NCBI GenBank assembly: GCA_026710545.1
Contig: JAPOQU010000124.1
Span: forward strand, 1 to 64,000
Reading direction: 5' to 3'
Length of the DNA: 64,000 nucleotides
DNA from: Gammaproteobacteria bacterium
Lineage (GTDB): Bacteria; Pseudomonadota; Gammaproteobacteria; Eutrophobiales; Eutrophobiaceae
Shown here: positions 17,526-62,440 of the stretch, one piece after another
Position numbering within the stretch: position 1 is the stretch's first letter
Layout: every line of letters begins with the position of its first letter
Notes under the pieces: model-generated
Databases searched by the model: none
What the model was told of the DNA's origin: nothing
What the model saw: only the letters and a program-made list of their open reading frames with translations
Position numbers and translations under genes: made by a program

Positions 17526-18140
17526 ATGGGTTCACAATTAGGCAAGCTGGTTGATGGATGGATCCTGCAACCGGATACTACCGATAGCAAGACGATTAAG
17601 AAAGGTCAGACTTTACGGATCATCGATCTGGAAGGCCAGCAGGTAGCGGATTTCGTTGCCTGGAAACAGGGAGACCCGGACGAATACCAGCACGTCGTCT
17701 ATACGAACTTCGCGCTCAGCAGTTGGAAGATAGGCGCCGGTGGGAAGCTGTACTCGAATCATATGAACACGATGTGGTCGATTACCGAGGACGATTGCGA
17801 AAACCACTACATGGGAGGCGCTTTCTGTGCCTGGGACTTGTATACATTCCTGGGTGACAAGCCGCAAATGGGTTGCCGTGACCGCCTCCAGGATGAGATC
17901 AAGAAACACGGCATGATCCCGCAGCATTTGCGGGAGATTTCGTGCTTCAACATCTTCATGAACGTCGCCTATGACCCGGACGGCACCTGGGAGATACGCC
18001 CGCCTGACAGTAAGCCCGGGGATCATATCGACTTGCTGGCTGAGATGGACATGCTATGGGCGGTATCCATCTGTAACGACCCGTGGTCGAACGGCGAAAA
18101 ACCGACCCCCATGCGGTTCGAGTTGTACGACCCGGCTTAA
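17526..18140 (+). CDS. DUF1989 protein (urea carboxylase-associated family)
   Basis: A 204-residue DUF1989 protein with the expected blocks GQTLRIIDLEGQQVADFVAW, LYSNHMNTMWSITEDDC, CFNIFMNVAYDPDG and PGDHIDLLAEMDMLWAVSIC. Family members accompany urea carboxylase and other amide or amine-degrading genes. They are thought to bind metal via conserved His, Cys and Asp residues, but no reaction is firmly established. It is convergent with the Rieske gene, only four bases between the stops. The neighbourhood (Rieske, glutamine-synthetase-like ligase, AllG-like protein) points to nitrogen compound metabolism. Confidence 0.8.
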   Translation: MGSQLGKLVDGWILQPDTTDSKTIKKGQTLRIIDLEGQQVADFVAWKQGDPDEYQHVVYTNFALSSWKIGAGGKLYSNHMNTMWSITEDDCENHYMGGAFCAWDLYTFLGDKPQMGCRDRLQDEIKKHGMIPQHLREISCFNIFMNVAYDPDGTWEIRPPDSKPGDHIDLLAEMDMLWAVSICNDPWSNGEKPTPMRFELYDPA

Positions 18141-18144
18141 TCGA

Positions 18145-19353
18145 TCAGGCCGGCAGTTGTCCGTTAGAAACCTTGTTGATCACGTAGCGGGCGATGTTGT
18201 TGACCGGCAACTCGTAGCTTGACAGGCGGCCCTGTAGCCTGTCGCGCTGAGTCAACGGCGACTGGAAGCAGCGTTGCATCGACATGCACGCCCACATATC
18301 CTGGCTGTTGATGAAGGAAAGGCTGGCTTCCGCCGTTTGTCGCGACGCCTCGAAATTCGACACTTTTGTTATCGTTTCCGGGCGATACAGGGTGAATATG
18401 GTCAGCCTTATCTCCCCCGGGGCATGGGGAAGCACACGGTAGTATCCCACTATCTCCGGCGTGAGAAAAAACAGGGTGTGCGGGTAGACCAGGTAGAACT
18501 GGCCCATCTGCATCTCTGCATCGGATAATCCCTCCATCGGCGGTATCGGCGAGTGCGCCCCGCTTGGACTCCACAGGGTCTTGTACTCATCCAGCGCGCC
18601 CGGGATATGCCCCCAGGAATGGACATAGGCATCGTTATACTCCTCTGCCCTGGACAGGTGTACCGGCATCGGGTCGTGCGAACCGCTGTGCAGACCCATC
18701 ACGTGGTAGAACTCCATGAAATTATCCATCAGCAGCTTCCAGTTAAACGGGCGTATACCGTCTTCCATGATAAAGGACTTCATATCTCCCAAGCGGTAAT
18801 TCTTCACATGTTCGGAAACGGGAGCGAGTCTCGGGGCCAGCGGTTCGGCATCGGGATCAAAATTGACAAATATGAACCCCTGCCAGACTTCGACCCGCAG
18901 TTTCGGCAGGCAGATTTTTTCCTTGTTGAAATTCCTGGCCTCGCCCATTTCCGGCGCGCCCACGAGTTTCCCCGTCAGATCGTAATTCCAGAAATGGTAG
19001 CGGCACTGGAAACGCCTGGTATTACCCTGACCCGGTTCCACGACCTCCGCGGCGCGGTGACGGCATACCCTGGACAGACACTGAATCTCGCCGTCTTCGT
19101 CGCGACAAATGACCAGGGGTTCGCCGAGCAACTCGATGGTGAAATAATCCCCCACGTTTTCCACCATATCGGCCCTGCCGACGCTGACCCATTCCCTGGA
19201 GAATATTTCCCTGACTTCCAGGTTGAAAAATTCATCCGACGTATAACAGTCAGGCGGCAACGTGGACGCCTCGTTCAGTGGTTTTAACGCGTTTGAAAAT
19301 TCCTGTGCATTAGCGCTCAGGATATCTGTAGCTGTACCATTACCGTTACTCAT
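18145..19353 (-). CDS. Rieske non-haem iron oxygenase, alpha subunit
   Basis: A 402-residue oxygenase component. The Rieske cluster ligands are Cys97-x-His99 and Cys117-x2-His120 (VCRHRAAEV and FQCRYHFWNY). The mononuclear iron site shows NFMEFYHVMGLH with two histidines, and an Asp in NSQDMWACMSMQ. The set is intact. It resembles the oxygenases acting on betaines, carnitine and similar quaternary amines more than ring-hydroxylating dioxygenases, and no beta subunit is adjacent. No reductase is present in the window. It follows the ligase gene by 30 bases on the minus strand, so they likely form an operon. Confidence 0.85.
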   Translation of the reverse strand: MSNGNGTATDILSANAQEFSNALKPLNEASTLPPDCYTSDEFFNLEVREIFSREWVSVGRADMVENVGDYFTIELLGEPLVICRDEDGEIQCLSRVCRHRAAEVVEPGQGNTRRFQCRYHFWNYDLTGKLVGAPEMGEARNFNKEKICLPKLRVEVWQGFIFVNFDPDAEPLAPRLAPVSEHVKNYRLGDMKSFIMEDGIRPFNWKLLMDNFMEFYHVMGLHSGSHDPMPVHLSRAEEYNDAYVHSWGHIPGALDEYKTLWSPSGAHSPIPPMEGLSDAEMQMGQFYLVYPHTLFFLTPEIVGYYRVLPHAPGEIRLTIFTLYRPETITKVSNFEASRQTAEASLSFINSQDMWACMSMQRCFQSPLTQRDRLQGRLSSYELPVNNIARYVINKVSNGQLPA

Positions 19354-19383
19354 AATAATTCCCCCCTGAATTGCATACTAATT

Positions 19384-20814: not shown

Positions 20815-20911
20815 AAGGACCTCCGAATAGCTTAATTCCGGGTTTTCCGGGGGCAAACCAGCATTGGCTTCATACGCTGTTATTTTGCATCATATTAGCG
20901 TTTATTCTGGT

Positions 20912-20980
20912 TAGTATATAATTTTCAGCTAATATATGAATTACTTAGTCGATATGTGAATATTGTAGGTAATATATAAT
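20912..20980. promoter_or_regulatory. Four regularly spaced AT-rich repeats between ligase and TonB receptor
   Basis: Four 11-base repeats close to YRATATRTRAA begin at 20912 (TAGTATATAAT), 20930 (TAATATATGAA), 20950 (CGATATGTGAA) and 20970 (TAATATATAAT). The last three are exactly 20 bases apart, about two helical turns, so bound proteins would sit on the same face of DNA. They lie upstream of the receptor start at 21018 and of the divergent ligase. The last copy contains TATAAT and may also act as a -10 box. Confidence 0.4.
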
Positions 20981-21017
20981 ATAAATATCTTTCGCAATGT
21001 AAATAGGGGGAGTCATC

Positions 21018-23369
21018 ATGCGCAAGTTATTCTTGGGGCGAATCATCTCGGCGGCCATATTCCTGGTTATCAGTTTTCCACAGGCCAGTTTCGCACAGAC
21101 CCTCGAAGAAGTGGTGGTTACCGCCCAGCGGCGTGCGGAGAGCATTCAGGATGTGTCAATCTCCATCACCTCGTTTTCAGGTGAAAGGTTGCGGGAGCTC
21201 AAGATACTCAACCCGGTGCATATTGCCTACCAGACACCCGGGGTCAACATCAAGAACCAGTTCAGCGAAGAGGCCCCGGTGTTTACGTTTCGCGGGATAG
21301 GCACGAACGACCCGTCCAGCGTCAACAGTCCCACGGTCAGCGCCTATCTCGATGGCGTCCTCGTCCCGTTCCACTGGATGCTGGGCGGAGAGTTCTATGA
21401 CCTGGAACGCATAGAGATACTGAAGGGACCACAGGGTACGCTTTACGGCAGCAACAATACCGGCGGCGCCATCAATCTTATCACGAAAAGACCTGAGCAG
21501 GAGTTCTCGGGATTCGGCCGGGTGGAATACGGCAGTTACCAGACATTTGAATTCGAGGGCGGGGTCGGCGGCGGCCTGACGGAGAACCTGGCGGGACGCG
21601 CCTCGCTGCTGGTGCGGGACCGCTCCAAGGGGCACCAGAGGAACCGCTATTTTGACCTGGCGCGCACCGGTGAGCAGGAACGTTTTGCCGGCCGGGTCCA
21701 ACTGTTGTGGGAGCCGACGGATGACCTTGATATGCACCTGACCGTACACGGTTCCAGCCATGAGGACGATCATCTCAATTACGTCAATATCAGCACCCAG
21801 GACCCGGCGTTCGCGTTTGGCGGTCCGCCACCGGTATTATGCGGGCCGGCCCTGGAGGGAAGGCGATCCGAAGGGGAATGTACGAATTTTCGCGGGTATT
21901 ACGATGATGACGGCGATGATCACGTAGGCGATTTCAACAACGCGCTGTCCGATGAGCCCGATGGCAGGCTGGAATCACGCTTCCGGGGGTTGGGAGCCAA
22001 TATCAAGATCACCTGGGACCTGCCGCGTTTTACCATCACCTCAACCACCAGCTACGACGAGTTTGAACGCGATGCCAAGGAAGATACCGACCAGGGCCCT
22101 GCGCTGATGCTGGAGGCTGTCTTTGAAGACGATATCTGGGTTTTCTCGCAGGAAGTGCTGGTTTCCTCGGACGACTCATGGCCCATCGACTGGCTCGCAG
22201 GGGCCTTTTACACCACCAATACAAACGACGGCGCCGTCACATTCCGGGCGCGGGATCTGCTGGCGACGGATGCAATAAATGCCTACGACCACGAGGTAGA
22301 AGCCATAGCCGGTTTCGCCCACTTCGGCTGGGAATTTGCGGATAACTGGAAAATCAACGGCGGCGTGCGGGTCACCCACGAGACCCGCGAGATGACCCAG
22401 GCAATAGTTGACTTCAACACCTTCGGTATCAGCCTGTTCAGTCAACCCGCCTCGTTCTGTGCGGTGGTCGGCATCTGCGGCATCCCCGGACTCGGCTTTG
22501 AGGGACTGTCCCCCGCGCCACCTACGTTCGGACCTGCCACCCTGGCCAGTCTGGACGGACATGAAATTGATGTAACGGACGTTTCCGGTGAGATCGGCCT
22601 GGAATGGAAACCGCAGGAAGACCTGCTGCTCTATGCAAAATTCAGCAAAGGATTCAAAAGCGGCGGATTTAACAGCCTGATTGTATTTTCCCAGCCGGAT
22701 GCCGAGCCCTTTGATGACGAGGTTGTGCTGGCATGGGAAGGGGGTTTTAAATCGACACTGCATGATTTGGGCATGCAATTGAACGGCGCCGTGTTCTACA
22801 TGGAATGGAAGGATTTTCAGGCACAGATCGTCCAGGGCACCGGCGCGTTCCCGGTCACCAATGCAGGCGATGCTGAAATTCTGGGCTTCGAATTGAGCCT
22901 TGACTGGTCGCCGCCCGCGCTCAGCGGCCTGGACATTATTCTGGGACTCTCGTACCTGGATACGGAAGTGACCAAGTCGAACCCGGACCTGGCATTCAGC
23001 CTGAAGGGCAACAAGTTACATGATGCGCCCGAGTGGACATTTAACGGCGTTGGTCGCTACGCTATGCCGCTGCCGGCGCTGGGCGGGAGCAACCTGTATT
23101 TCCAGGTGGACTTCAACTGGAACGACGACTTTTTCTGGGAAGCCAAGAACGTGCCGCCCATTGTCGAGCACGCCTACTGGCTGGTGAACACCCGGGTTGG
23201 TATCGCGGCAGAGGATAATCGCTGGGACATTGCATTCTGGACGCGTAACGTCTTTGACGCGGAATACATGGGGGAGATATTTGACTTCACCGCGACAACG
23301 GGCACAGGGCTCGGGATCGCCGGTTTTCCGCGGGAACTGGGCGTTAGCGTGAATTACAGTTGGGACTAA
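21018..23369 (+). CDS. TonB-dependent outer-membrane receptor
   Basis: A 783-residue receptor with a signal peptide (cleaved near SFAQ at 23-26) and the plug start LEEVVVTAQRRAESIQDVSI. The plug carries FTFRGIGTNDPSS and the ERIEILKGPQGTLYGSNNTGGAINLIT segment conserved in the family. The rest is a 22-strand barrel ending in an aromatic-rich strand (VSVNYSWD). Receptors of this type take up substrates too large or dilute for porins and are not limited to iron. GGGGGAG precedes the ATG. Lying between the ligase/oxygenase operon and the DUF1116 gene, it may import their shared substrate. Confidence 0.93.
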   Translation: MRKLFLGRIISAAIFLVISFPQASFAQTLEEVVVTAQRRAESIQDVSISITSFSGERLRELKILNPVHIAYQTPGVNIKNQFSEEAPVFTFRGIGTNDPSSVNSPTVSAYLDGVLVPFHWMLGGEFYDLERIEILKGPQGTLYGSNNTGGAINLITKRPEQEFSGFGRVEYGSYQTFEFEGGVGGGLTENLAGRASLLVRDRSKGHQRNRYFDLARTGEQERFAGRVQLLWEPTDDLDMHLTVHGSSHEDDHLNYVNISTQDPAFAFGGPPPVLCGPALEGRRSEGECTNFRGYYDDDGDDHVGDFNNALSDEPDGRLESRFRGLGANIKITWDLPRFTITSTTSYDEFERDAKEDTDQGPALMLEAVFEDDIWVFSQEVLVSSDDSWPIDWLAGAFYTTNTNDGAVTFRARDLLATDAINAYDHEVEAIAGFAHFGWEFADNWKINGGVRVTHETREMTQAIVDFNTFGISLFSQPASFCAVVGICGIPGLGFEGLSPAPPTFGPATLASLDGHEIDVTDVSGEIGLEWKPQEDLLLYAKFSKGFKSGGFNSLIVFSQPDAEPFDDEVVLAWEGGFKSTLHDLGMQLNGAVFYMEWKDFQAQIVQGTGAFPVTNAGDAEILGFELSLDWSPPALSGLDIILGLSYLDTEVTKSNPDLAFSLKGNKLHDAPEWTFNGVGRYAMPLPALGGSNLYFQVDFNWNDDFFWEAKNVPPIVEHAYWLVNTRVGIAAEDNRWDIAFWTRNVFDAEYMGEIFDFTATTGTGLGIAGFPRELGVSVNYSWD

Positions 23370-23403
23370 CCGGTTCGCCGTTCGCTTAACCGCTAAGGGG
23401 GAG

Positions 23404-24657
23404 ATGGTCACGACGAGGGCCGACGCTAACCAACTGGCTTTTGAAAGACTGACCGCTTCGGAACCGGTACTCAGGGACATACGTCCGGCTGATGACGTGC
23501 TGCCGGGCATGACGGCCGCGATGATACTGACCTCCGGGGTCACCATGCCCTGGAACGAGTACACGGGCGGGCAACGCGAGGCGATCATCGGCGGGGCGCT
23601 GTTCGAAGGCCTTGCCGCGGACAGGGAAGAAGCCATACATCGCCTCGATAGCGGCGAAATCCGGGTAAAAGGCTGCCAGGACCATGGCTGTGTCGGGTCC
23701 CTGGCAGGAATTTACACGGCCTCCATGCCGGTCTTTGTCGTCGAAAACCGCACTTTCGGCAACCCCGGTTACTGCAACCTGTATGAAGGGACCAATCCAA
23801 GGCGCCTCAACTACGGGGTTTACGACGAAGGTGTCCGTGATCGTCTCATGTTCATCCAAGAAGTCGTCGCACCGATTATCTCGGATGCATTACGCGCATC
23901 AGAGGGCATTCCGCTCAAACCTCTCATGAAACGCGCCTTGCACATGGGTGACGAGTTACACAGCCGCAATACCGCGGCCTCATTATTGTTCATGAACGAA
24001 CTTTTCCCCTTGTTGCTGACGGCCGATACAAAAAGACAGGAGGCAGTCAAACAAACGCTTGAAGCCATTACAGCGGATCACTATTTCTTCCTGCGCCTGT
24101 CCATGGCGGCCGCCAAGGCAAGCGCGGATGGGGCGCACGGCATCCACGGTTCCAGTATGGTGACGGCCATGGCGTTCAACTGTCGCGGGTTTTCAATCCG
24201 TGTGAGCGGACTGGGGGATGAGTGGTTTCCCGGCCCTCACGCATCCGTTCAGGCAAAGTTGTTTGACGGCCATAGTGAGGACGAGATTACCTGGATGGGG
24301 GGTGAGAGTCCCATTATCGAGACAATCGGGGCAGGAGCATTTGCCCAGGCAGCGGCTTTTCCGCTACAGCAATACCAGGGTGGTACGCCCCAGGCCATGG
24401 TCGAGCGTAACCTGGAACTCTATGACATCACGCTGGGAGAGAACCCTGATTTTCATATCCCGTACCTGGGCTACCGGGGCACCCCGACCGGCATCGATAT
24501 CTTCCGGGTGCTGGAGACAGGTATCCTGCCGTCCATGGATATCGGTATTGCCGGTCGCGACGGCGGGCAAATCGGCGCGGGGATCGTGCGTGCGCCGAGA
24601 AAATGTTTCGAGGTTGCAGCACATGCCTATCTGCAGAGGTACGGTACGCAACAATAA
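23404..24657 (+). CDS. DUF1116 protein, AllG (YlbE)-like
   Basis: A 417-residue DUF1116 protein, essentially the full length of E. coli AllG (YlbE). Visible blocks include GMTAAMILTSGVTMPWNEYTGGQ, GCQDHGCVGSLAGIYTASMP, MGDELHSRNTAASLLFMNELFP and HGIHGSSMVTAMAFNCRGF. AllG works with AllF (FdrA) and AllH as oxamate carbamoyltransferase in allantoin breakdown, but neither partner is in this window. It begins 34 bases after the TonB receptor with GGGGGAG before the ATG. A carbamoyl- or amide-transfer role on a nitrogen compound is plausible; working without AllF/AllH would be atypical. Confidence 0.8.
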   Translation: MVTTRADANQLAFERLTASEPVLRDIRPADDVLPGMTAAMILTSGVTMPWNEYTGGQREAIIGGALFEGLAADREEAIHRLDSGEIRVKGCQDHGCVGSLAGIYTASMPVFVVENRTFGNPGYCNLYEGTNPRRLNYGVYDEGVRDRLMFIQEVVAPIISDALRASEGIPLKPLMKRALHMGDELHSRNTAASLLFMNELFPLLLTADTKRQEAVKQTLEAITADHYFFLRLSMAAAKASADGAHGIHGSSMVTAMAFNCRGFSIRVSGLGDEWFPGPHASVQAKLFDGHSEDEITWMGGESPIIETIGAGAFAQAAAFPLQQYQGGTPQAMVERNLELYDITLGENPDFHIPYLGYRGTPTGIDIFRVLETGILPSMDIGIAGRDGGQIGAGIVRAPRKCFEVAAHAYLQRYGTQQ

Positions 24658-33262: not shown

Positions 33263-34585
33263 TTAACCATCCCCGGTACTGCCCGGGTTGCACATGTATG
33301 CCAGCCAGGACCGGTACTGGTTACGGATATACTGCTCGCTCAACGCGGACTGCGGCGCGGCATCGTCCGTGTCCGGGCCAAACAGGCTGTGCTGGCTTAT
33401 CCATTCCTGGCCGGTTGAGAGTAATCCTTCCTGTACCCGCCGGTAAGCTTCCAGGTCGTCGGGTTTGATCAGCGAGGAGGGAGAATGGATGGTATTGGCG
33501 TAAACGATATTTCTTTGATTGATTTCATCCGGAGCGCCTTTCCAGCGGAAAACGTTGATCTCTATGGCTGTGCGGTCTACGGAAACCGGCCTGATCACGC
33601 GCATCTGCAGGAAACGCGGATGGGCTGATGCGTTCGGATAGAAGTTCACATTGTGCAGGTTGGTATTCAGGATTTGCGCGGACTTTTCCTTGCCGTAACT
33701 TTTCCGGTGGCGGCTGACGTATTCCCGATAGGCCGGGTCAGCATCATTATCGGGATTACGAAACCCGCGCATGTCGCTGTGACCGTACCCGTAACAGGTC
33801 ACTTCAAGCTCTTCCATCTGCCGGTAACCCTGTGCATTTGCCTGCACCAGTTGCAGCGCCAGTGCCGGTGTCTTCCCTGATGTTTTGTCAATCCTGCTGA
33901 GTTGCTCCCGGCTTGCCGCAATGGAGGATTGATGCACGTTCAGCGGATGCATTCCGTCGTGAAGATTCTCCAGGTAAATCTTCCAGTTGTTGCGATAAAG
34001 GGCGCGGAATGAACTCTTTACCGGTTGCAGTTCGCCATCCGGTGAGCGGTCCACCATGTTGTCCAAGGCGCGCCAGGCTCCACCCAGGTAGTCGGTCAGA
34101 TCAGGGGCGTCAGCGTCCAGGTTGGCAAAAATGAAACCTCGATAGCTGTCTGTCCTGATCCCAGTCAGTCCGTAACCAGCCGGGTTTTCGTCTACTTCCG
34201 TACCCCGGTAATTGTCCCGGCACGGGATGGACAGCAACGCGCCGTCTGTCCTGTAGCTCCAGCCGTGATAGCTGCAGGCCAGGACCTTCGCATTACCTTG
34301 CCCGTTGCCCAGCACCTTTGCCCCGCGATGGGCGCAACGGTTATGCAGGGTCCTGATAAGATTATCTTCACCGCGGATGGCGATGACGGGGTTGCCGGCG
34401 ATATCAGCGGTAAGGTAATCCCCGCTACCGGGCAACTGGCTTTCATGGCACAGGTAGTTCCAGGCGCGGGCAAAGATACGTTTCAGTTCCAGTTCGAACA
34501 GGACCGGGTCCAGGTATACGTCCCTGTGTACGCTATCAGGCCGTACCAGGGAGCGGATGTGGTCTGTATCGTAATTGCCCTTCAT
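33263..34585 (-). CDS. Rieske ring-hydroxylating dioxygenase, alpha subunit
   Basis: A 440-residue catalytic subunit. The Rieske site is Cys84-x-His86 and Cys104-x2-His107 (RCAHRGAKV and ACSYHGWSY). The mononuclear iron histidines lie in LENLHDGMHPLNVHQ, and the acidic ligand in DDLEAYRRVQEG. All ligands are intact. It overlaps the upstream PLP gene by 4 bases and precedes the beta subunit by 17, so the three are co-translated. It would dihydroxylate or monooxygenate an aromatic substrate using electrons from an unlinked reductase. The substrate is unknown. Confidence 0.88.
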   Translation of the reverse strand: MKGNYDTDHIRSLVRPDSVHRDVYLDPVLFELELKRIFARAWNYLCHESQLPGSGDYLTADIAGNPVIAIRGEDNLIRTLHNRCAHRGAKVLGNGQGNAKVLACSYHGWSYRTDGALLSIPCRDNYRGTEVDENPAGYGLTGIRTDSYRGFIFANLDADAPDLTDYLGGAWRALDNMVDRSPDGELQPVKSSFRALYRNNWKIYLENLHDGMHPLNVHQSSIAASREQLSRIDKTSGKTPALALQLVQANAQGYRQMEELEVTCYGYGHSDMRGFRNPDNDADPAYREYVSRHRKSYGKEKSAQILNTNLHNVNFYPNASAHPRFLQMRVIRPVSVDRTAIEINVFRWKGAPDEINQRNIVYANTIHSPSSLIKPDDLEAYRRVQEGLLSTGQEWISQHSLFGPDTDDAAPQSALSEQYIRNQYRSWLAYMCNPGSTGDG

Positions 34586-52269: not shown

Positions 52270-53157
52270 ATGAAAATACTGATTCTCGGCGCTACCGGTA
52301 CCATAGGGCACCAACTTGCTGAAGAAATAGTGCAGGGCGCTGCGCATGTTCAATTACGCCTGACGAGCAGACGCACTGAGGGTGTTGTACGACTGAAGCG
52401 AGATTTCTCTGATGCGGAAATCTGCAAGACGGATCTCCTGGACCTGGCAAGTCTGAAATCCGCCGTTACGGGAACGGACAAGATTATGGTCGTCAATCCG
52501 GATTTGATTGATGAAACCCGGGCCTGTTCAAACCTGGCCGGGGCCGTGGGTCAGGCCGGCGGCGTAACACATGTCCTGCGCCTGTTGACGTATCCACCGG
52601 GCCTGACGCCGGCAGATATCAAAGCTGATGCGCGTGATATTCCCATAGGTTTTAACCAGGGTATCAACGCCAGACAGGTACTGGATGCCAGTGACATGCC
52701 GCTGACTTACGTTAATGTCATTTCCAGCTTCATGACCAATTTACTGTGGTCGGCCGAGTTGGTACGTACCAGACAAAAATTTGTCATGCCGTGTCCGCAA
52801 GTGCAGACCTGGTTACACCCCGCTGATATTGCGCATGTGTGCGCCGGGATACTGGTGGATAATCCTGCTTCTCATATCGGTAAGACCTATGAACTGTCCG
52901 GTGTCGAATTGATCTCTTACGATGATATTGCTGCTATGCTGACATCTGAACTGGGTATTTCCATCGAATATTCTGATGATGAAGCATTATTACAGGAAAT
53001 GTTCGGTGAGGATTACGATCTCTCCATGAAATATTTTGAGTGTGAACGAGACTATTACGCCAACGTCCAGGCAACGAATGTAGTAGAACAATTTTCAGGG
53101 CGGCAACCGTATCCCATGCGAAAATGGATACGCGATAATGCCGGCAGGTTTCGGTAA
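52270..53157 (+). CDS. NmrA-like NAD(P)-binding protein
   Basis: A 295-residue atypical short-chain dehydrogenase. MKILILGATGTIGHQLAEEI is the nucleotide loop; RLTSRRTEGVVRLKRDFSDAE, MPLTYVNVISSFMTNLLWS and TWLHPADIAHVCAGIL follow in the usual order of NmrA/NAD(P)H-binding proteins. No catalytic YxxxK is evident, so it may be a redox sensor or an isomerase-type member. Unlike the copy at 24716 it has no signal peptide. It is divergent from the fatty-acid-type operon and starts a plus-strand group with the ureohydrolase and SnoaL genes. Confidence 0.75.
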   Translation: MKILILGATGTIGHQLAEEIVQGAAHVQLRLTSRRTEGVVRLKRDFSDAEICKTDLLDLASLKSAVTGTDKIMVVNPDLIDETRACSNLAGAVGQAGGVTHVLRLLTYPPGLTPADIKADARDIPIGFNQGINARQVLDASDMPLTYVNVISSFMTNLLWSAELVRTRQKFVMPCPQVQTWLHPADIAHVCAGILVDNPASHIGKTYELSGVELISYDDIAAMLTSELGISIEYSDDEALLQEMFGEDYDLSMKYFECERDYYANVQATNVVEQFSGRQPYPMRKWIRDNAGRFR

Positions 53158-53206
53158 ACATGGCATCAATGACGCTCCGTTCAACACTGACAGGAATACA
53201 GATACC

Positions 53207-54196
53207 ATGATAGATGACGATAGTTCCCTGCACGCCGTGGTAGAGGGCACCAACTGGTGGGGGATAGCCACGTTATTCCGTTGTGAACTGGAAAACGACC
53301 CCCTAAATGTCGATATCGGCCTGGCAGGCGTCCCCCACAGTGCGGGGAACGGCACCAGCCAGCGTGACCAGCATTATGGTCCGCGCGCAGTGCGCCATGT
53401 CTCGGCGGAGTATCGCCGGTTCCACCGCGAGTTTGGATTAGATCCCTGGGAATTGTGCCGAATTCGGGATATGGGGGACCCTCGGTTGCCCCATGCCATG
53501 GTGAATGACCTGGCAATGAAGGATATAGAGGCATTTTACAGGAAACTGGATGCGGCAAATGTGCGGCCCGTTTCGATTGGCGGGGATCATTCCATTGTTT
53601 TGCCTATCCTGCGCGCTATCGCCGGTCCCCAATCAAACCTGGCGGGTGAGCCGATTGCCGTGGTCCATGTGGACGCACATACTGACACTTATTACGATGA
53701 AGCCCATTATATGGGAAACAAGGAGTGGGCCGGTGGCTGGGGGGTGCTCATGCAACAGGAAGGCCTGGTTGATCCGGACTGCGTATTCCAGATAGGCATC
53801 AGGGGCCACGGCTATACCCAGACGGATACGGAACTGGGCTATAACGTCATAGAATATAAGGAATTTCAAAAACTGGGGGCAGCAGGTGTAGTCAGGGAGA
53901 TAAGAGCCCGTATAACAGATGACAAGCCTGTTTACATTACCTTCGACCTGGATGCGCTGGACCCGACCGTAGCGCCGGGTGTGGCAAACGTGGAAGCCGG
54001 TGAGGGCATGAAAATGGGAGAAGCGCTGGAACTGTTGCAGGGTTTGCGCGGCATGAACGTAATTGGGGGCGATGTTGTTGAACTGGTGCCGACCAAGGAT
54101 AATCCCAACATGATTACAAGTATCAATGCCAGTGCCCTGATGTTCGAACAGATAAGTCTGATAGCCGATTACCTGAGCAAGCAAGGTCAAACCTGA
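53207..54196 (+). CDS. Ureohydrolase (agmatinase/arginase family)
   Basis: A 329-residue binuclear manganese hydrolase. All six metal ligands are seen: His128 (GGDHS), Asp156, His158 and Asp160 (VHVDAHTD), and Asp247 and Asp249 (TFDLDALDP). Agmatinases, guanidinobutyrases and related enzymes release urea from a guanidino group. The start at ATG 53207 avoids overlap with the preceding gene; the frame is open to 53138. It overlaps the SnoaL-like gene by one base. A guanidino compound as pathway substrate is possible, but the family is broad. Confidence 0.86.
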   Translation: MIDDDSSLHAVVEGTNWWGIATLFRCELENDPLNVDIGLAGVPHSAGNGTSQRDQHYGPRAVRHVSAEYRRFHREFGLDPWELCRIRDMGDPRLPHAMVNDLAMKDIEAFYRKLDAANVRPVSIGGDHSIVLPILRAIAGPQSNLAGEPIAVVHVDAHTDTYYDEAHYMGNKEWAGGWGVLMQQEGLVDPDCVFQIGIRGHGYTQTDTELGYNVIEYKEFQKLGAAGVVREIRARITDDKPVYITFDLDALDPTVAPGVANVEAGEGMKMGEALELLQGLRGMNVIGGDVVELVPTKDNPNMITSINASALMFEQISLIADYLSKQGQT

Positions 54197-54636
54197 TGAG
54201 CCAGTGGCCTCGAGATGAAATTGAACGTGCTTTTAAGCACTATATCGAGCACACTAGGTACTGCGCCGGTTCCGGGAACTGGTCACGCTGGGCGGAACTG
54301 TTCACAGAAGATGTCAGGTACTACAGTAACGGAGTCCTGATCTGGACTAACCGGGAAGAAGTGCGGACAGGTGTCGTCGAATATTATTCCGAATACCCGT
54401 TCAATCACGTAGTTGATTTTGCCTTGAACTGGCACGTTATGGATGAAATAAGCGGCCGGGTGGTGTTCACTATGAAAGTGATCATGGATGACCCCGGTGA
54501 CGGTTCCGACTTCAGCGAAGACGTCCTGATACATATCAATTTTGCCGGCAAAGGTAAGTGGAAACTGCAGGAGGATTATTTTAATCCCGACCTGTTCTCC
54601 AGGATGGCTGAAGACTGGATTGAAGCAAAAAGTTAA
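54196..54636 (+). CDS. SnoaL-like (NTF2-fold) protein
   Basis: A 146-residue NTF2-fold protein: IERAFKHYIEHTRYCAGSGNWSRWAELFTEDVRYY opens the cone, and HINFAGKGKWKLQEDYFN closes it. SnoaL-like proteins serve as small hydratases, cyclases, isomerases or oxygenase partners. It overlaps the ureohydrolase stop (TGATG) and is convergent with the Rieske-type gene, 4 bases overlapping. A second SnoaL-like gene lies at the window's right edge. The function is unassigned. Confidence 0.75.
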   Translation: MSQWPRDEIERAFKHYIEHTRYCAGSGNWSRWAELFTEDVRYYSNGVLIWTNREEVRTGVVEYYSEYPFNHVVDFALNWHVMDEISGRVVFTMKVIMDDPGDGSDFSEDVLIHINFAGKGKWKLQEDYFNPDLFSRMAEDWIEAKS

Positions 54637-55841
54637 TCACACGGGGTAAGATCATCCAGGACAAGACGGGTGAAGTTATAATGCGGCTGATCCCAGAAGG
54701 GTGAGAAGTACTGCTGTGCGCACACGGGCGAACGCCGCGCTTTCTGAATTGCTTCAGTGATTGCGTTATCTTCCCGGGCAGCTTCCTCGAACATCTCTGC
54801 AAACTCGTCGAAAGCTTCTACCAGTGCCGGATCGTTGGCGGCAGATTTATGACAATAATAACCCCGCATTTCTATTGTTTTGCCCGGCCCGTCCGGCAGG
54901 GCAATACCGATTTCAATAATGTTCGGCATAACGACAAGATACAGGTTGGGGTACAGCGTCAGAAAATAGCCGGACTTTGGTGACGGTTTGTCTGTCCGGC
55001 TTAGCGGCGGGCAGGGCAACTCCGGATAGGTATCCGTCAATTCAGCATGATTATAGGAAAACCCTACCAGGGCGCCATCATGGACCGGCTGGAATGTTCT
55101 GTTTCCGTCCCCGACCACGCGCGGCACATCCGGGGATTCATTGTACATCCTGTGGGTGAACGACTCGTGTAACACATTCAAACAGGCATTTTCGCAGTAG
55201 GTTTTCCAGTTGGTATCAATGGTGTCTTCGGTGAGAAACGGCATCCCCTCCTGGTCCCGCGCTATCTCCAGCTTTTCCAGGTCATATTCCTCAAGCAGGT
55301 TGATTACAGGTTGGATGTAGTCGTTGAACGGCTCAGCATTATCTGACAGGTTAATGAATAACAGGCCTTGCCAGACTACTGATTTGACCTGTTTGAGATC
55401 ACCTTCGCCCGGCGCCAGTGCGTCTGCGGTACAATCTTCGTGGCCATTCCAGTAAGGCATGGCTACCAGCTTGCCATCCAGGCTGTATTCCCAGCCGTGG
55501 TAGGGGACAACCAGCTTTTCCATCGCTTTATTTGATTCCAGAACAACCGGGCAACCATCATAAGGACAGATGTTATGGAACGTCCGGAGTGTCTTGTCCG
55601 TACCGCGTACGGCAATAAACGGCATGCCGCAGACATCAAATTTCTTCACATCACCGGGGTTCTCTGCATCGTACGTGAAAACAGCCGCTACCCAGTGTCT
55701 CGAATAGATTCGCTCTGTTTCCAGGTTATAAACATCCCGGGAGATGAATGCCTGCCTGGGTAATGTCCTTGCCTGCCCTATCGGCCGGCGCATCGCAGCC
55801 TGTTCATCCGGGGAAATTAAATGATCAATATTGCCTGACAT
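54633..55841 (-). CDS. Rieske oxygenase-like alpha subunit with incomplete cluster ligands
   Basis: A 402-residue protein of the ring-hydroxylating oxygenase alpha family. The Rieske region reads ICPYDGCPVVLE and VVPYHGWEYS: Cys92 and His115 remain, but the second ligand is Tyr94 and the third is Val112. Cys97 lies nearby and might substitute. The mononuclear iron site looks intact (NWKTYCENACLNVLHESFTH, with an Asp in REDNAITEAIQ). A [2Fe-2S] cluster is therefore doubtful. I use ATG 55841; an ATG at 55865 would overlap the LLM gene by 4 bases. It is co-transcribed with the flavin oxidoreductase. Confidence 0.8.
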   Translation of the reverse strand: MSGNIDHLISPDEQAAMRRPIGQARTLPRQAFISRDVYNLETERIYSRHWVAAVFTYDAENPGDVKKFDVCGMPFIAVRGTDKTLRTFHNICPYDGCPVVLESNKAMEKLVVPYHGWEYSLDGKLVAMPYWNGHEDCTADALAPGEGDLKQVKSVVWQGLLFINLSDNAEPFNDYIQPVINLLEEYDLEKLEIARDQEGMPFLTEDTIDTNWKTYCENACLNVLHESFTHRMYNESPDVPRVVGDGNRTFQPVHDGALVGFSYNHAELTDTYPELPCPPLSRTDKPSPKSGYFLTLYPNLYLVVMPNIIEIGIALPDGPGKTIEMRGYYCHKSAANDPALVEAFDEFAEMFEEAAREDNAITEAIQKARRSPVCAQQYFSPFWDQPHYNFTRLVLDDLTPCD

Positions 55842-55861: not shown

Positions 55862-56890
55862 TCAACCATTATCCAGCATTTCCCTTACCAGTGGAACGAC
55901 GCGTTCCTGAAATCGCCGCATGTTGTTTAACATGTAGTCAACAAATTCCGCGCCCGTAAAACCTCCGGGTTTATAGCCGCCCGAGCCGCCTGAAAGCTCC
56001 ACGATCGCCTGGTCAAACCCGAGGTCAAACACCCGCCTTTTCAAGGTTCTTGCAACTTCCTCGTCATTGCCGGCAATAAAACATTCATAAACATCGAAAT
56101 TATTACGGGTGTATTCGGTTGTCCGGTTGCCCTGCCTTGCGCAAGTTTCAATAAACGCGTCAAAATCGAATTCGCCGTCAACCAATTTTACGCCCACGTT
56201 ACGCGCCAGTTTTACCGTGGAAAAATCACGGCCGGCTTCTTCGAAACGCATTTTTGCAATGGCCAGCAATTCGCGCACATGGTCATCGTCTGCATGATAT
56301 ACGTTGATGTGATCCGCAAATTCCGCGGCGATCCTGGGCATCAGTTTCTTGCCGAATATCAACCCTACCCAGATGGGTGGATGAGGCTGCTGGACCGGTT
56401 TTGGTTCATTAACCGCATTCTTCAATTGATAGTATTGTCCATCGAACGTGACATGTTTCTCGGTCCACATCCGCCGAATAATATCCAGTTCCTCCCGGAG
56501 TATGGCAATACGCTCTGACGGTTTCTCAGGATAAGGTTGACCCCAGGGCAGATGCTGCTGGGGTTCATCACCGGGGCCCATGGCCAGTTGCAACCGGCCA
56601 TTACTTATCTGGTCGACGATACTGCTTGATTTGGCCAGTACCGATGGATGACGTCTGGAGAAGGGTGATACCAGGGGGCCGAATTTTACCTTTTTCGTCA
56701 GCTCTGCAATCACCGGCAGGACCGACCATGTGTCCAGGACCGGCGCTTCCTGGGTATAAGGTTCCGGCCCCACAATATTATCCATCATCCACAGGTAGTC
56801 GTAACCAAGTTCTTCGCCGGCAATCCATAATTCTTTTGATTCTCGGTAGTTACCACCGAGGCCGTTTAAATATACCCCGAAATCAGCCAT
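55862..56890 (-). CDS. Luciferase-like (LLM) flavin-dependent oxidoreductase
   Basis: A 342-residue TIM-barrel flavoenzyme of the bacterial luciferase superfamily. ADFGVYLNGLGGNYRESKELWIAGEELGYDYLWMMDNI begins the barrel; GPLVSPFSRRHPSVLAKSS, NGRLQLAMGPGDEP and PPIWVGLIFGKKLMPRIA are typical. Members use reduced FMN or F420 for oxygenation or dehydrogenation. The start ATG 56890 has AAGGGGA upstream; a frame to 56983 exists but lacks homology. It leads a minus-strand unit with the Rieske-like gene and faces the operator at 57004. Confidence 0.84.
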   Translation of the reverse strand: MADFGVYLNGLGGNYRESKELWIAGEELGYDYLWMMDNIVGPEPYTQEAPVLDTWSVLPVIAELTKKVKFGPLVSPFSRRHPSVLAKSSSIVDQISNGRLQLAMGPGDEPQQHLPWGQPYPEKPSERIAILREELDIIRRMWTEKHVTFDGQYYQLKNAVNEPKPVQQPHPPIWVGLIFGKKLMPRIAAEFADHINVYHADDDHVRELLAIAKMRFEEAGRDFSTVKLARNVGVKLVDGEFDFDAFIETCARQGNRTTEYTRNNFDVYECFIAGNDEEVARTLKRRVFDLGFDQAIVELSGGSGGYKPGGFTGAEFVDYMLNNMRRFQERVVPLVREMLDNG

Positions 56891-57023: not shown

Positions 57024-57066
57024 TAGTTTGACGCTGTTGCCACACGTAAACTAAAGGAGGTTGAGC

Positions 57067-57480
57067 GTGACTAAATCGAAGAGTATTTCCGGCCGTTGTC
57101 TCTGTGGCGGTATTCGCTATGAAATTGCCGGTGCAATCACCGGCGCCGGTCACTGCCATTGCGCCATGTGCCGGCAACAATCCGGTGCTGCGTTTATGAC
57201 TGCCGGGTTCGTAACACCCGGTGAGTTTCACTGGACCGAAGGGGAAAACCTGATAGCGCGCTATGAGTCCTCGCCCGGGGCATTTCGAATCTTCTGCAAG
57301 GTGTGCGGGTCGAACCTCGGCGCGACAGAAGAAGGGCGGGTCACACTGATCTTTCTGGGGACCGTGTCGGGCGATCCGGGCGTTCGCCCGGCAGAACATA
57401 TATTTGTGGCTTCAAAAGCGCCCTGGCATGAAATTACCGACGACCTGCCACAGTACGACGAATTTCCTCCCTCTGAGTGA
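57067..57480 (+). CDS. GFA-family zinc protein (glutathione-dependent formaldehyde-activating fold)
   Basis: A 137-residue GFA/CENP-V fold protein. Zinc cysteines are in GRCLCGGIRYEI, HCHCAMCRQQSGAAF and FCKVCGSNL. Start GTG 57067 follows AGGAGG at a six-base distance; the in-frame TTG at 57061 is too close. Family members include formaldehyde-glutathione adduct synthases, but most are uncharacterised. A role in removing formaldehyde released by oxidative demethylation would fit the oxygenases around it, as inference only. Confidence 0.82.
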   Translation: MTKSKSISGRCLCGGIRYEIAGAITGAGHCHCAMCRQQSGAAFMTAGFVTPGEFHWTEGENLIARYESSPGAFRIFCKVCGSNLGATEEGRVTLIFLGTVSGDPGVRPAEHIFVASKAPWHEITDDLPQYDEFPPSE

Positions 57481-57533: not shown

Positions 57534-58709
57534 TCAGGCCGAAGCCTGAGGCTCAGGGTACGAATGGCGCCGTAATCCGGCGCTAAACACCAGGCCGCCG
57601 GCAGCGCAGATGAGCGCCAGGATGATTATGAACAGGCCCAGTTCACCATAACCGGAGGCAGTAATGATATTGCCGGCCAGAAACGGGGCCGTTGCCGCAC
57701 CCATCAGGTTGATGCCTGTTGCCCTGGCCGCCCAGCGCCCTTCGCTGTCAAGCATTGCACAGCCACCGATGAGATAGGGAAAACCCAGGAAGAAAGCGAA
57801 GGAGAAGCCCAGAATACTTAGCTCGTATATCCAGGTCTGGCCGGTGTTATACACCAGGTAACCCGCTATGCCCATGACGATGCTGCTCGTCACAAGCGGT
57901 ATATCCCGCCTGATTCGCTTCCCAGCTGCGGCAGACACTGCAGCGCCACACAAACCGGCGACCTGGGCCGCCGCAAGAAGCAAACCGATGCGGGTATCGG
58001 TTAACCCCAGGTTGACTCCACTTCGCTCGCTGAAGGACCAGATTGAACCCTCTACGACGCAATAGATAAACAGGAGACCAACGCCGAATACTCCGAACCG
58101 GAAAACGCTGCGGCTATCAAATTGTTCCTTTGATGGCGCGTGAACCTCTGTGCCAGTCGCCGTTCCCGGCAGCATCAGTAACGGGAAAAAAGCCAACACC
58201 AGCACAATCAGGTAAATGCCCGTCACGCCGTCAAACATGAACCGTTGCTTCATGAAGCTGATAGCCGCTATCACCATTACCATGAGCACGGTATTTAATC
58301 CTACTACGGCACCGGCAACACGGTCAGGGTCTGATGCCCGGCTGATTATCGCGCTGCAGGCCGCCAGGCACATACCCGAGCCAATACCACAAAAAATACG
58401 AAGCACTGATAGATAGACCAGGGCATCCTGTGAAAGGCTGAGCAGGTTGCCTGTTGCAGCCAGGCACACGCCCGCGATACCGAGCCTTCGCAGCGGCAGT
58501 TTGTCAAGCCAGCCTGAAAACAGCACGCAACTCACGGCTACGGCGCCGATTTCCAGACTGCAGACCAGGCCGGCCTGGCGCTCATCCGCGCCCAGCCCGT
58601 CCATCAGTGCCCCGATATAGAGCGGTAAACTGAAAATAGTCAGGTTGCCGATGAGAAAGCCGGCCAGGGCTTCCAGCGAATAGCGCAGGTCAGAGCTACC
58701 GGTCGCCAT
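57534..58709 (-). CDS. MFS transporter, divergent subfamily (copy 2 of 3)
   Basis: A 391-residue, 12-helix major facilitator. PLYIGALMDGLGADERQAGLV and LRIFCGIGSGMCLAACSAIIS match the landmarks of the gene at 45748. The 2-3 loop reads LDKLPLRRLGIAG rather than the classic motif. Its start overlaps the TPR-sulfotransferase gene by 14 bases, making it the third gene of the P450 operon. It may export or import the product or substrate of the P450/sulfotransferase steps. Confidence 0.84.
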   Translation of the reverse strand: MATGSSDLRYSLEALAGFLIGNLTIFSLPLYIGALMDGLGADERQAGLVCSLEIGAVAVSCVLFSGWLDKLPLRRLGIAGVCLAATGNLLSLSQDALVYLSVLRIFCGIGSGMCLAACSAIISRASDPDRVAGAVVGLNTVLMVMVIAAISFMKQRFMFDGVTGIYLIVLVLAFFPLLMLPGTATGTEVHAPSKEQFDSRSVFRFGVFGVGLLFIYCVVEGSIWSFSERSGVNLGLTDTRIGLLLAAAQVAGLCGAAVSAAAGKRIRRDIPLVTSSIVMGIAGYLVYNTGQTWIYELSILGFSFAFFLGFPYLIGGCAMLDSEGRWAARATGINLMGAATAPFLAGNIITASGYGELGLFIIILALICAAGGLVFSAGLRRHSYPEPQASA

Positions 58710-60297
58710 TCACTATGCCGTTTTGTTTAAAGATGTTGATTAATGGTCCCAGTTCATCCCTGTAGTGTTGCCATTTTCCCACGGATGACTGGTATATCGG
58801 CTGCCTCACCTGTACTGCACTGGCTGTGGTGGCCGGAGCCGGGTTATTATGGAATTCAATGCACTGCGGTTCCCAACCCAGGTTACAGTATTCCAGTAAT
58901 TTCCTCACTTCCGCTTCCGTATTCTCAACAATATCCTCATAGGCCACACAATACAGCGCATCTCCCAGCACGTCCCGCCAGTGGTCCACCAGGCGTCGAT
59001 AGGCAAGGTAGTACCTGGCAAGTTCCTTCAGGTCATATGAAAACGGATAGATGCCGATGAACATTGTTTTGTAAATTGCAAGGCATGCATCCAGAGGATC
59101 CCGCTCCAGGACTACGATTTTTGCGTTCGGCAATGCAGAGTGAATAATCCCGCAATACAGATAGTTCAGAGGTAATTTATCGATGAAATGTGGCGTATGG
59201 CCTGTCTTCGGCCTCGTGCTTTCAATATAGTTATCACCCAGCAGAGTGACGTCTGTTGCAACCGATCGGTCAATCATTTCCGTCATTTTCATTTTTGCTG
59301 CTCCTGATTTTTCCTGTATGGCCTTGACCAGGACCGAGCTGAAGTTGTTCAGTTCGCCTGCTGAATATACCTTGCTGTGATTCCCGATGATCCTGTCTAC
59401 CAGCGAGGTGCCGGTTCTGGGCAGTCCCAGGACAAAAATCGGCTCAGTGGATGCGTTGCCAGGACCGATTTTTGCCATAGTGTCTTTTGTGTATACGTCG
59501 ATTATGCGGCCGATCGCCTCGATATCGTCGGATACGTCATAGCGGGTATGGCGCCGCTGCAGGTCACAGGCGGATTTGATAAACCTGAATTGCTCGGCAT
59601 AACGCCCGATATCCTCACATTCCTTGGCGATGGCAAATCGCAATGAAATCTCACCGCGCCAGTTTGTTACGCCGGAAAGCAGTAAGTCCTTCATTTGCTC
59701 AATATGATTGTTTTTCTCCGTCCAGGTTTTCAGGTCGGCGCGGGCGTAATAGGCCTGGTAGTTGTGGGGTTCCGATTTGATGACCTGGTCAAAGTTTGCT
59801 TCGGCGCCATCCATATCTCCAATCATGCGTTGTATCAGGGCCAGGTTTGACCGGTAGAACGAACTGCCCGGTTCCTTATCCACTGCGCGCCGGCTGTAAA
59901 CCAGCGCTTTTTCCGTTTCATCACACAGGGAATACATGGTTCCAATCATGTCATTCAGTGACGCTTCGCCCGGGTTGAATGAAACCGCCTTTTCCAGTTC
60001 CGGCAGGGATTGTGAATTTTTACCGGCGCTGATATATACCCTTGCCAGCAGTAAATAGGACCGGATATTTTCCGGGGCAAGCTCAACTACTTTCCTTGCA
60101 TTTTCTATCGCATTATCGTAATTGCGCTGTGCCAGGTTTATGCTACAGAATAACGACCAGACCTGCGGTTTGTGCCGATAAGTCTTGAACAACTGGTTTG
60201 CAATATTGACGGCTTCCTGCAGTTTTCCATTTGCCAGCAGGGCTTCAGCCCTCTGAACCATGTTTCCCAATTCGTTATTGATTGTTTCCGCGGGCAT
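58696..60297 (-). CDS. TPR-repeat sulfotransferase
   Basis: A 533-residue protein. Residues 1-250 are tetratricopeptide repeats (for example VWSLFCSINLAQRNYDNAIE, then IRSYLLLARVYISAGKNSQS). The C-terminal half is a sulfotransferase domain with PIFVLGLPRTGTSLVDRIIG as the 5-prime phosphosulfate loop and VVLERDPLDACLAIYKT as the 3-prime phosphate region. It would transfer sulfate from PAPS to an acceptor, with the TPRs holding a protein or the substrate. It follows the P450 by 52 bases and precedes the MFS carrier. No PAPS synthesis genes are in the window. Confidence 0.82.
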   Translation of the reverse strand: MPAETINNELGNMVQRAEALLANGKLQEAVNIANQLFKTYRHKPQVWSLFCSINLAQRNYDNAIENARKVVELAPENIRSYLLLARVYISAGKNSQSLPELEKAVSFNPGEASLNDMIGTMYSLCDETEKALVYSRRAVDKEPGSSFYRSNLALIQRMIGDMDGAEANFDQVIKSEPHNYQAYYARADLKTWTEKNNHIEQMKDLLLSGVTNWRGEISLRFAIAKECEDIGRYAEQFRFIKSACDLQRRHTRYDVSDDIEAIGRIIDVYTKDTMAKIGPGNASTEPIFVLGLPRTGTSLVDRIIGNHSKVYSAGELNNFSSVLVKAIQEKSGAAKMKMTEMIDRSVATDVTLLGDNYIESTRPKTGHTPHFIDKLPLNYLYCGIIHSALPNAKIVVLERDPLDACLAIYKTMFIGIYPFSYDLKELARYYLAYRRLVDHWRDVLGDALYCVAYEDIVENTEAEVRKLLEYCNLGWEPQCIEFHNNPAPATTASAVQVRQPIYQSSVGKWQHYRDELGPLINIFKQNGIVNGDR

Positions 60298-61621: not shown

Positions 61622-62440
61622 GTGAATAACATTGATACGATTGAAAGACCGGAGATGAGGCTGCAGGAGTTACCCATTGCAGAGCAGTGGTACAGCAGCA
61701 CGACACTGGATGGTGGCATAACCCTGCTTACGGAGCCATATGTGGACCGGCTTATCCGTTGTAACATCTGGCACATAAAGGGAAGAGATCATGACCTTTT
61801 GATCGATACCGGCCTGGGGGTGTGCAGCCTGAAAGAAGCGGCCCGGGACCTGTTGGAGTCGCGGATTATTGCAGTAGCCACGCATACCCATTATGACCAT
61901 ATCGGCAACCACCATGAGTTTGATGTGCGCGCAGTGCATGAAGCGGAGGTCGAACTGATGAGCATGCCTGAGCCGGCGCCTTTATTTCTGTCCGAGTTCG
62001 GTGATCAGGCAAGTTATATTATCGAAGCAGGATATACACCGGATGAAGATCTGATTAAAGCCTTACCTTATACCGGCTTTGAACCGCATAATCATCATAT
62101 ACAGGCGGCGCCGGCAACCTGGATCCTCCAGGAAGGAGATGTTATAGACCTGGGGAATCGTGCCTTCGAGGTATTGCATCTACCCGGCCATACGCCGGGC
62201 AGTATCGGCCTGTGGGAAGCTGATACAGGCATCCTGTTTTCCGGGGATGCTATCTATGACGGGCCGTTGCTGGCCAACCTGCCGGAAGCAAACATCGATG
62301 ACTATATCGACACGATGGAGCGCCTGATAAGACTGCCGGTGCGTACCGTGCATGGGGGCCATGAGAGAAGTTTTGATCAACCACGGCTGCTGGAAATTGC
62401 AAGAAAGTACCTGGAGTCCTGGCGTGACGGCAGCACCTGA
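61622..62440 (+). CDS. Metallo-beta-lactamase-fold hydrolase
   Basis: A 272-residue MBL-fold enzyme. The zinc motif is THTHYDHIGNHHEFD; other metal ligands are in LHLPGHTPGSIGL, FSGDAIYDGPL and TVHGGHERSFD. The N-terminal region reads LITEPYVDRLIRCNIWHIKGRDHDLLIDTG. Lactonases, glyoxalases and thioesterases share this fold. It is divergent from the P450 across the operator and leads a two-gene unit with an MFS carrier. Hydrolysis of a lactone or ester made by the oxygenases is a plausible role. Confidence 0.84.
   Translation: MNNIDTIERPEMRLQELPIAEQWYSSTTLDGGITLLTEPYVDRLIRCNIWHIKGRDHDLLIDTGLGVCSLKEAARDLLESRIIAVATHTHYDHIGNHHEFDVRAVHEAEVELMSMPEPAPLFLSEFGDQASYIIEAGYTPDEDLIKALPYTGFEPHNHHIQAAPATWILQEGDVIDLGNRAFEVLHLPGHTPGSIGLWEADTGILFSGDAIYDGPLLANLPEANIDDYIDTMERLIRLPVRTVHGGHERSFDQPRLLEIARKYLESWRDGST

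Follow-up and report, generated by a model that had tools for sequence, protein, structure and literature searches.

We describe a small bacterial family of Rieske-oxygenase-like proteins from which the electron-carrying parts have consistently been lost while the catalytic iron site has been kept, and this pattern suggests that the scaffold now works in a different manner. One member, the protein P0001, is encoded in a 64,000-nucleotide stretch of DNA (positions 1 to 64,000 of contig JAPOQU010000124.1, assembly GCA_026710545.1; hereafter the window) from a gammaproteobacterium whose genome is referred to as G000. What defines Rieske oxygenases is a relay in which electrons leave a Rieske cluster and reach the catalytic iron by way of a bridging carboxylate. 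P0001 and its homologues lack elements of this relay at both ends (coordinates in Table 1).

P0001 retains Rieske ligands 1 (Cys92) and 4 (His115), with ligand 2 changed from His to Tyr94 and ligand 3 from Cys to Val112. Ligands 2 and 3 are identified as those lost because a HMMER alignment with carnitine monooxygenase 6y9c, the best sequence relative of P0001 in the PDB, pairs CPYDG with CPHRG and VPYHGW with CPYHAW. The codons in the window DNA (C92 TGT, Y94 TAT, D95 GAT, C97 TGC, V112 GTC, H115 CAC) agree with this alignment and bear out the initial annotation, which had reported two of the four ligands as substituted. The codons of the bridging position and the iron site are N222 AAT, H225 CAC, H230 CAC and D358 GAT, and the plus strand across the gene holds no open frame. 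Misalignment of the motifs was considered and rejected, since the alignments with PDB entries and a 50-row alignment agree on the substituted positions.

The 50-row alignment comprised six family members and 44 canonical oxygenases, 39 from G000 and five from related genomes. Canonical rows passed a length filter of 340 amino acids, which left out L037 (328 amino acids) and five short Rieske proteins of G000 (L058, L075, L076, L079 and L080); two sequences of genome G418 were left out as well, L082 and L081, the latter dropped as a long branch. Every row omitted from the canonical set has canonical ligands. Scans of viral contigs for canonical relatives, made to deepen the alignment, yielded three loci on two contigs.

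Position 94 is Tyr in all six members and His in 44/44 canonical rows, and position 112 is Val in three members and Thr in the other three, as opposed to Cys in all 44 canonical rows. Therefore, the conservation within a subfamily that had been proposed as a check holds fully for Tyr94 and in part for Val112, a position that is never Cys in the members. The neighbouring residues differ in the same manner: position 95 is Asp in 6/6 members and basic (Arg or Lys) in 42/44 canonical rows, and position 97 is Cys in every member and in none of the canonical rows (0/44). Cys92 and His115 are present in 50/50 rows. The mononuclear iron ligands are retained, as stated at the outset, with His225 and His230 in all 50 rows (6/6 members) and Asp358 in the 49/49 rows that reach it (5/5 members, L011 ending earlier); the surrounding Glu226 and Phe228 are also kept beside this His/His/Asp triad.

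Moreover, the alignment revealed two changes beyond those first noted. The bridging position 222 is Asn in 6/6 members and a carboxylate in 44/44 canonical rows (Asp in 29, Glu in 15), and the members have an insertion of one residue ahead of the first iron-ligand His, with three residues between Asn218 and position 222 compared with two in all 44 canonical rows. The bridging aspartate or glutamate is described, in a passage of PMC9508527, as connecting the Rieske centre of one subunit with the iron of its neighbour. Because this carboxylate is lost, electron delivery by the usual route is argued against. Judged from these columns, the donor ligands and the bridging residue are lost together and the acceptor iron is retained. 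Within G000, CxH...CxxH is kept in 45/45 other Rieske matches (translated), P0001 and its paralogue L002 being the only exceptions; the two other Rieske genes in the window, L044 and L054, keep all four ligands, as had been claimed for them.

Relatives of P0001 were collected by a scan of named genomes and by whole-genome searches, and loci hitting the same gene were merged. This gave six distinct homologues in four genomes, namely P0001, L009 (88% identical to P0001), L010 (75%), L011 (90%), L015 (46%) and L002 (38%), with identities of 36-90%. L002 lies on another contig of G000; L011 is cut by a contig end after residue 342, and L012 is the contig piece with the tail of the L011 gene. A sequencing error or a decaying gene, the doubt attached to the initial annotation, was not borne out and has a probability close to nil: the homologues share the changes, the six distinct members come from separate assemblies and use different synonymous codons at the altered sites (TAT/TAC for Tyr94, TGC/TGT for Cys97), and the frames are intact. 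The ratio of nonsynonymous to synonymous substitution rates (dN/dS) among four close members, 0.12-0.29, indicates purifying selection. We therefore rejected error and pseudogenization as explanations. By these measures the P0001 family is small, real and under selection, not a product of decay.

The members form one clade. In a first tree built from all columns, which contained two misframed rows (L023 and L024) and lacked L025, this clade had 100/99 support; the corrected tree, from which the ligand and bridging columns had been dropped, recovered it with a Shimodaira-Hasegawa-like approximate likelihood ratio (SH-aLRT) support of 99. Canonical L066, and then L023-L025, branch beside the member clade. 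Since the clade is nested among canonical oxygenases, the loss of the relay elements is derived, and it was apparently a single event.

With a His and a Cys ligand replaced across the family, a normal [2Fe-2S] Rieske centre is not expected, in line with the initial annotation. The site has nevertheless not drifted as a functionless one would be expected to. The cluster-facing loops 88-97 and 113-119 are invariant at 14/17 positions, compared with 64/325 elsewhere (Fisher p = 1.5e-7, for loop limits chosen after the alignment was seen). P0001 has 10 Cys, of which only Cys92 and Cys97 are invariant across all six members, and the only His residues invariant in all six are His89, His115, His225 and His230. 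Most likely, on the pattern of conservation, Cys92, Cys97 and His115 together with Tyr94 and Asp95 make up a new site, which would be a structural metal site, a thiol pair or a re-ligated cluster.

The last of these options deserves separate weighing. Cys92, Cys97 and His115, plus a fourth ligand (Tyr94, Asp95 or an exogenous group), might hold a non-Rieske [2Fe-2S] cluster or a mononuclear Fe or Zn that passes electrons on to the catalytic iron. Such a centre would make sense of the restricted set of invariant Cys and His residues, of the invariance of Tyr94 and Asp95, of the far stronger conservation of the cluster-facing loops and of the retained Rieske-domain fold. It fits poorly with the bridging position of the electron path, where 6/6 members have Asn, next to the insertion, and no carboxylate. 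In addition, Cys97 stands at +5 from Cys92, the register of the second Cys in L080, the bc1-type Rieske protein of G000 (CTHLGC), and in bc1-type Rieske proteins this +5 Cys takes part in a disulfide and does not bind the cluster. Thus the earlier proposal of Cys97 as a new ligand gains from the invariance of Cys92, Cys97 and His115 and loses from this register, and overall we regard a re-ligated, electron-passing centre as rather unlikely.

The reading we favour, with chances that we would call about even, is that P0001 is a non-heme enzyme with a mononuclear iron that retains the Rieske-oxygenase scaffold, lacks a classical Rieske centre and keeps Cys92, Cys97 and His115 as a different site. 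The internal electron relay would have been dismantled at both ends, by the change of the Rieske His and Cys to Tyr and Val/Thr and by the change of the bridging Asp/Glu to Asn with its insertion. Catalysis by P0001 would then rely on a mononuclear non-heme Fe(II) to which no classical Rieske centre passes electrons; O2 may draw all of its electrons from the substrate, which is how other facial-triad oxygenases work, or a soluble donor may supply them directly. The Rieske-fold domain would retain the new conserved Cys92/Cys97/His115 site with Tyr94 and Asp95 adjacent, most likely as a structural metal or thiol site, and the substrate would be an amino-acid-like or guanidino nitrogen compound, as the neighbouring genes and the nearest folds hint. 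There are oxygenases with a 2-His-1-carboxylate mononuclear iron that work without a Rieske partner; they have the facial-triad chemistry in common with P0001, whereas the folds are unrelated, and the likeness is by mechanism only.

Several points weigh against this favoured reading. The strict conservation of Cys92, Cys97 and His115 would be just as expected of a re-ligated Fe-S cluster that goes on transferring electrons. At two loci, both of them in genome G002, a canonical Rieske oxygenase is encoded in the same gene run, so that a hetero-complex is conceivable. The family comprises six distinct members only, four of them at least 75% identical. Furthermore, the two AlphaFold models of P0001 are weak, with a mean predicted local distance difference test score (pLDDT) of 45.6 and 54.1 (mostly 70-86 in the Rieske part and mostly below 66 in the catalytic half), so that the fold is recognisable and the geometry around Cys92, Cys97 and His115 is unreadable. 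A protein that has given up the entire canonical electron path and has kept the metal triad could also be read as a pseudo-oxygenase, whose metal site is used to bind a ligand or for a reaction without redox chemistry. We consider this very improbable, given that the His/His/Asp triad is retained together with Glu226 and Phe228 and that genes for oxidative enzymes (a luciferase-like monooxygenase and a cytochrome P450) abound nearby.

The overall fold of P0001 is predicted to be that of the Rieske oxygenase family: the second model matches the quaternary-ammonium Rieske oxygenases (3vca, CntA, stachydrine demethylase) over residues 27-394 with Z of about 20. CntA/YeaW, stachydrine demethylase and GbcA resemble P0001 in the two-domain fold and the mononuclear iron triad. 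However, the CntA/YeaW group keeps CxH/CxxH and a bridging Glu where P0001 has Tyr, Val and Asn plus the extra residue; in YeaW the bridging residue is given as Glu208 in a passage of PMC9508527. The best NCBIfam match of P0001, GbcA, scores 96.6 bits against a cut-off of 670, which places the protein outside the GbcA/CntA equivalogs. P0001 thus has a Rieske and a Ring_hydroxyl_A-type domain in one chain (residues 50-130, 5.7e-11, and residues 208-380, 1e-16, in Pfam, both over the cut-off) and a 2-His-1-carboxylate iron site, and it lacks the CxH...CxxH cluster ligands and the bridging Asp/Glu. Because both the four ligands and the bridging carboxylate belong to the definition, P0001, a Rieske-oxygenase homologue by fold and descent, should not, on its sequence, be filed as a functional Rieske oxygenase.

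Two known systems come closest in lacking a Rieske cluster in the oxygenase chain. In Micromonas chlorophyllide a oxygenase (CAO), one chain has no Rieske centre. The functions of this enzyme are described as split over two chains in part of PMC9615114, and in NdmC, a component of the 7-methylxanthine N7-demethylase NdmCDE, a non-heme iron Rieske-family oxygenase without its own Rieske cluster is described in part of PMC4408171, with the Rieske domain relocated to the reductase NdmD. P0001 is like NdmC in being a Rieske-family oxygenase expected to have no Rieske cluster of its own. Unlike NdmC, it retains the Rieske domain in the chain, with the ligands point-substituted in place; Micromonas CAO, in turn, belongs to a eukaryotic plastid and has a partner chain, whereas no conserved partner was found for the P0001 family. 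Judged from the protein sequences, what is new here relative to both is that the Rieske domain stays in the chain and its ligands are substituted in place. Among the open-access papers listed by our searches, we recognised none, from title and the opening of the abstract, that reports a Rieske oxygenase with naturally substituted in-chain ligands, an absence that is not proof.

These precedents, together with the canonical Rieske oxygenase in the same gene run at L035 and L032, raise a division of labour, in which the altered subunit would obtain the cluster from a Rieske protein, be it a canonical Rieske oxygenase or some other. We hold this to be quite improbable. The same-run oxygenase occurs at 2/6 loci, both of them in G002; no second Rieske match occurs on the 41 kb contig C74 of G005 or on the 16 kb contig C25 of G418; and P0001 and L002 are separated from the closest Rieske matches in G000 by 8-20 kb and 31 kb, respectively. 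No Rieske-reductase fusion was found among the 47 Rieske matches of G000, as judged by frame length (the longest, 506 amino acids, is the oxygenase L063). Finally, the bridging carboxylate on the acceptor side is lost too.

A different electron donor had been suggested at first, the luciferase-like flavin monooxygenase encoded next to P0001. Three closely related loci, those of P0001, L009 and L011, have its gene just upstream, with 20-22 nt in between. At L010, however, about 1 kb separates the member from a related, divergently oriented gene; the context of L002 yielded no such gene, and the L015 contig ends just upstream of the member. As the association is not conserved with L002, the case for the flavin enzyme as an obligate partner is weakened, and as a donor it remains a weak candidate. 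Luciferase-like enzymes themselves use reduced flavin and O2, and to our knowledge they do not act as electron carriers.

The neighbourhood gives hints about the substrate. Ureohydrolases (PF00491) lie within 11 kb of 5/6 members, at about 0.5 kb from P0001, L009 and L012, 4.2 kb from L002 and about 11 kb from L010 (on the same 16 kb contig); none was found on the L015 contig, and G000 has five PF00491 genes in 4.4 Mb. Because of these neighbours and the nearest folds, the quaternary-ammonium oxygenases, the family might act on a guanidino or amino-acid-like nitrogen compound. An arginine-deiminase/DDAH-type protein is encoded 20 kb beyond P0001 on the same contig (L033:10434-11438) and a PAD_porph-like gene in the L010 cluster (L034:15208-15991), and together they support guanidino chemistry. 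Genes for a TPR-sulfotransferase, a metallo-beta-lactamase-fold protein, an MFS transporter, a TonB receptor and an Lrp/AsnC protein recur among the member loci.

Table 1. Features of the window that bear on P0001 and its surroundings.
Feature	Coordinates	Strand	Remarks
P0001 gene, Rieske-oxygenase-like protein, 402 amino acids	54633..55841	minus	ATG 55841, stop 54633; altered Rieske ligands, 2-His-1-Asp iron site intact
Codons 92-94, C-P-Y (canonical C-x-H)	55560..55568	minus	alignment and DNA codons
Codon 95, Asp (R/K in 42/44 canonical)	55557..55559	minus	alignment and DNA codon
Codon 97, Cys (6/6 members; 0/44 canonical)	55551..55553	minus	alignment and DNA codon
Codons 112-115, V-P-Y-H (canonical C-x-x-H)	55497..55508	minus	alignment and DNA codons
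Codons 219-222, A-C-L-N	55176..55187	minus	one-residue insertion and Asn222 replacing bridging Asp/Glu
Codons 225-230, H-E-S-F-T-H	55152..55169	minus	both His of the mononuclear iron site
Codon 358, Asp	54768..54770	minus	third iron-site ligand
Canonical Rieske oxygenase (control)	18145..19353	minus	all four ligands
Canonical Rieske oxygenase (control)	33263..34585	minus	all four ligands
Ureohydrolase open reading frame (arginase/agmatinase family)	53138..54196	plus	likely start 53207
Small SnoaL/NTF2-like protein	54196..54636	plus	convergent with P0001; matches below Pfam cut-off
Luciferase-like (LLM) flavin monooxygenase	55862..56890	minus	likely start MADFGVY at 56890; stop 20 nt before P0001 start codon
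GFA-family protein	57061..57480	plus	between MFS and flavin-enzyme genes
MFS transporter	57534..58709	minus	
TPR-sulfotransferase protein	58696..60297	minus	common to L009, L010, L011 and L015 loci
Cytochrome P450	60350..61543	minus	
Metallo-beta-lactamase-fold protein	61622..62440	plus	common to L009, L010 and L002 loci

Three further features of the window were recorded. The TPR-sulfotransferase fusion is about 50-60% identical to the copies at L010 and L015. The GFA gene sits where G002 has a canonical Rieske oxygenase (L035:2149-3288), and the difference at this spot is a gene replacement or loss. Around the first canonical oxygenase of Table 1, positions 17526-24657 hold genes for a DUF1989 protein, a glutamine-synthetase-like protein and AllG (oxamate carbamoyltransferase subunit), and this region looks like a separate nitrogen-compound pathway.

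The P0001 family is rare. Members are carried by three genomes of this genus and by one contig, that of L010, labelled Neomarinimicrobiota. Within the genus, 3/7 genomes have a member, and a search of the family and order (53 genomes) returned the identical three. Searches of the class (369 genomes) and the phylum (398 genomes) found a member only in the genome of P0001 itself, and in the order of G418 (41 genomes) only G418 has one. No family relative was found on viral contigs, and a plasmid search gave only matches below 60% identity, the best rows at 28-29%, whose ligands were not inspected. The L010 contig (L034, G418:C25) has a G+C content of 0.445, as opposed to 0.239 and 0.320 in two other pieces of G418; because of this difference its host is uncertain, and the contig is probably misbinned. 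The Rieske oxygenase set of these bacteria is unusually large, with 47 Rieske-domain matches in G000 (4.4 Mb) and 59 in its congener G005.

A more far-reaching possibility, to which we give clearly less than even chances, is a lineage that has rebuilt its cluster site around Cys92, Cys97 and His115, possibly with Tyr94 or Asp95, and has discarded the bridging carboxylate; its O2 activation, whether by a redox centre or with electrons from the substrate only, would be undescribed in the superfamily. Automated annotation would label P0001-like proteins as ordinary Rieske oxygenases, since both Pfam domains score over the cut-off. A clade that has lost three elements of the relay together, has kept the iron site and is under purifying selection constitutes a natural experiment on the purpose of the relay, and it makes testable whether O2 activation on the Rieske-oxygenase scaffold can dispense with a Rieske centre or can use another kind of centre.
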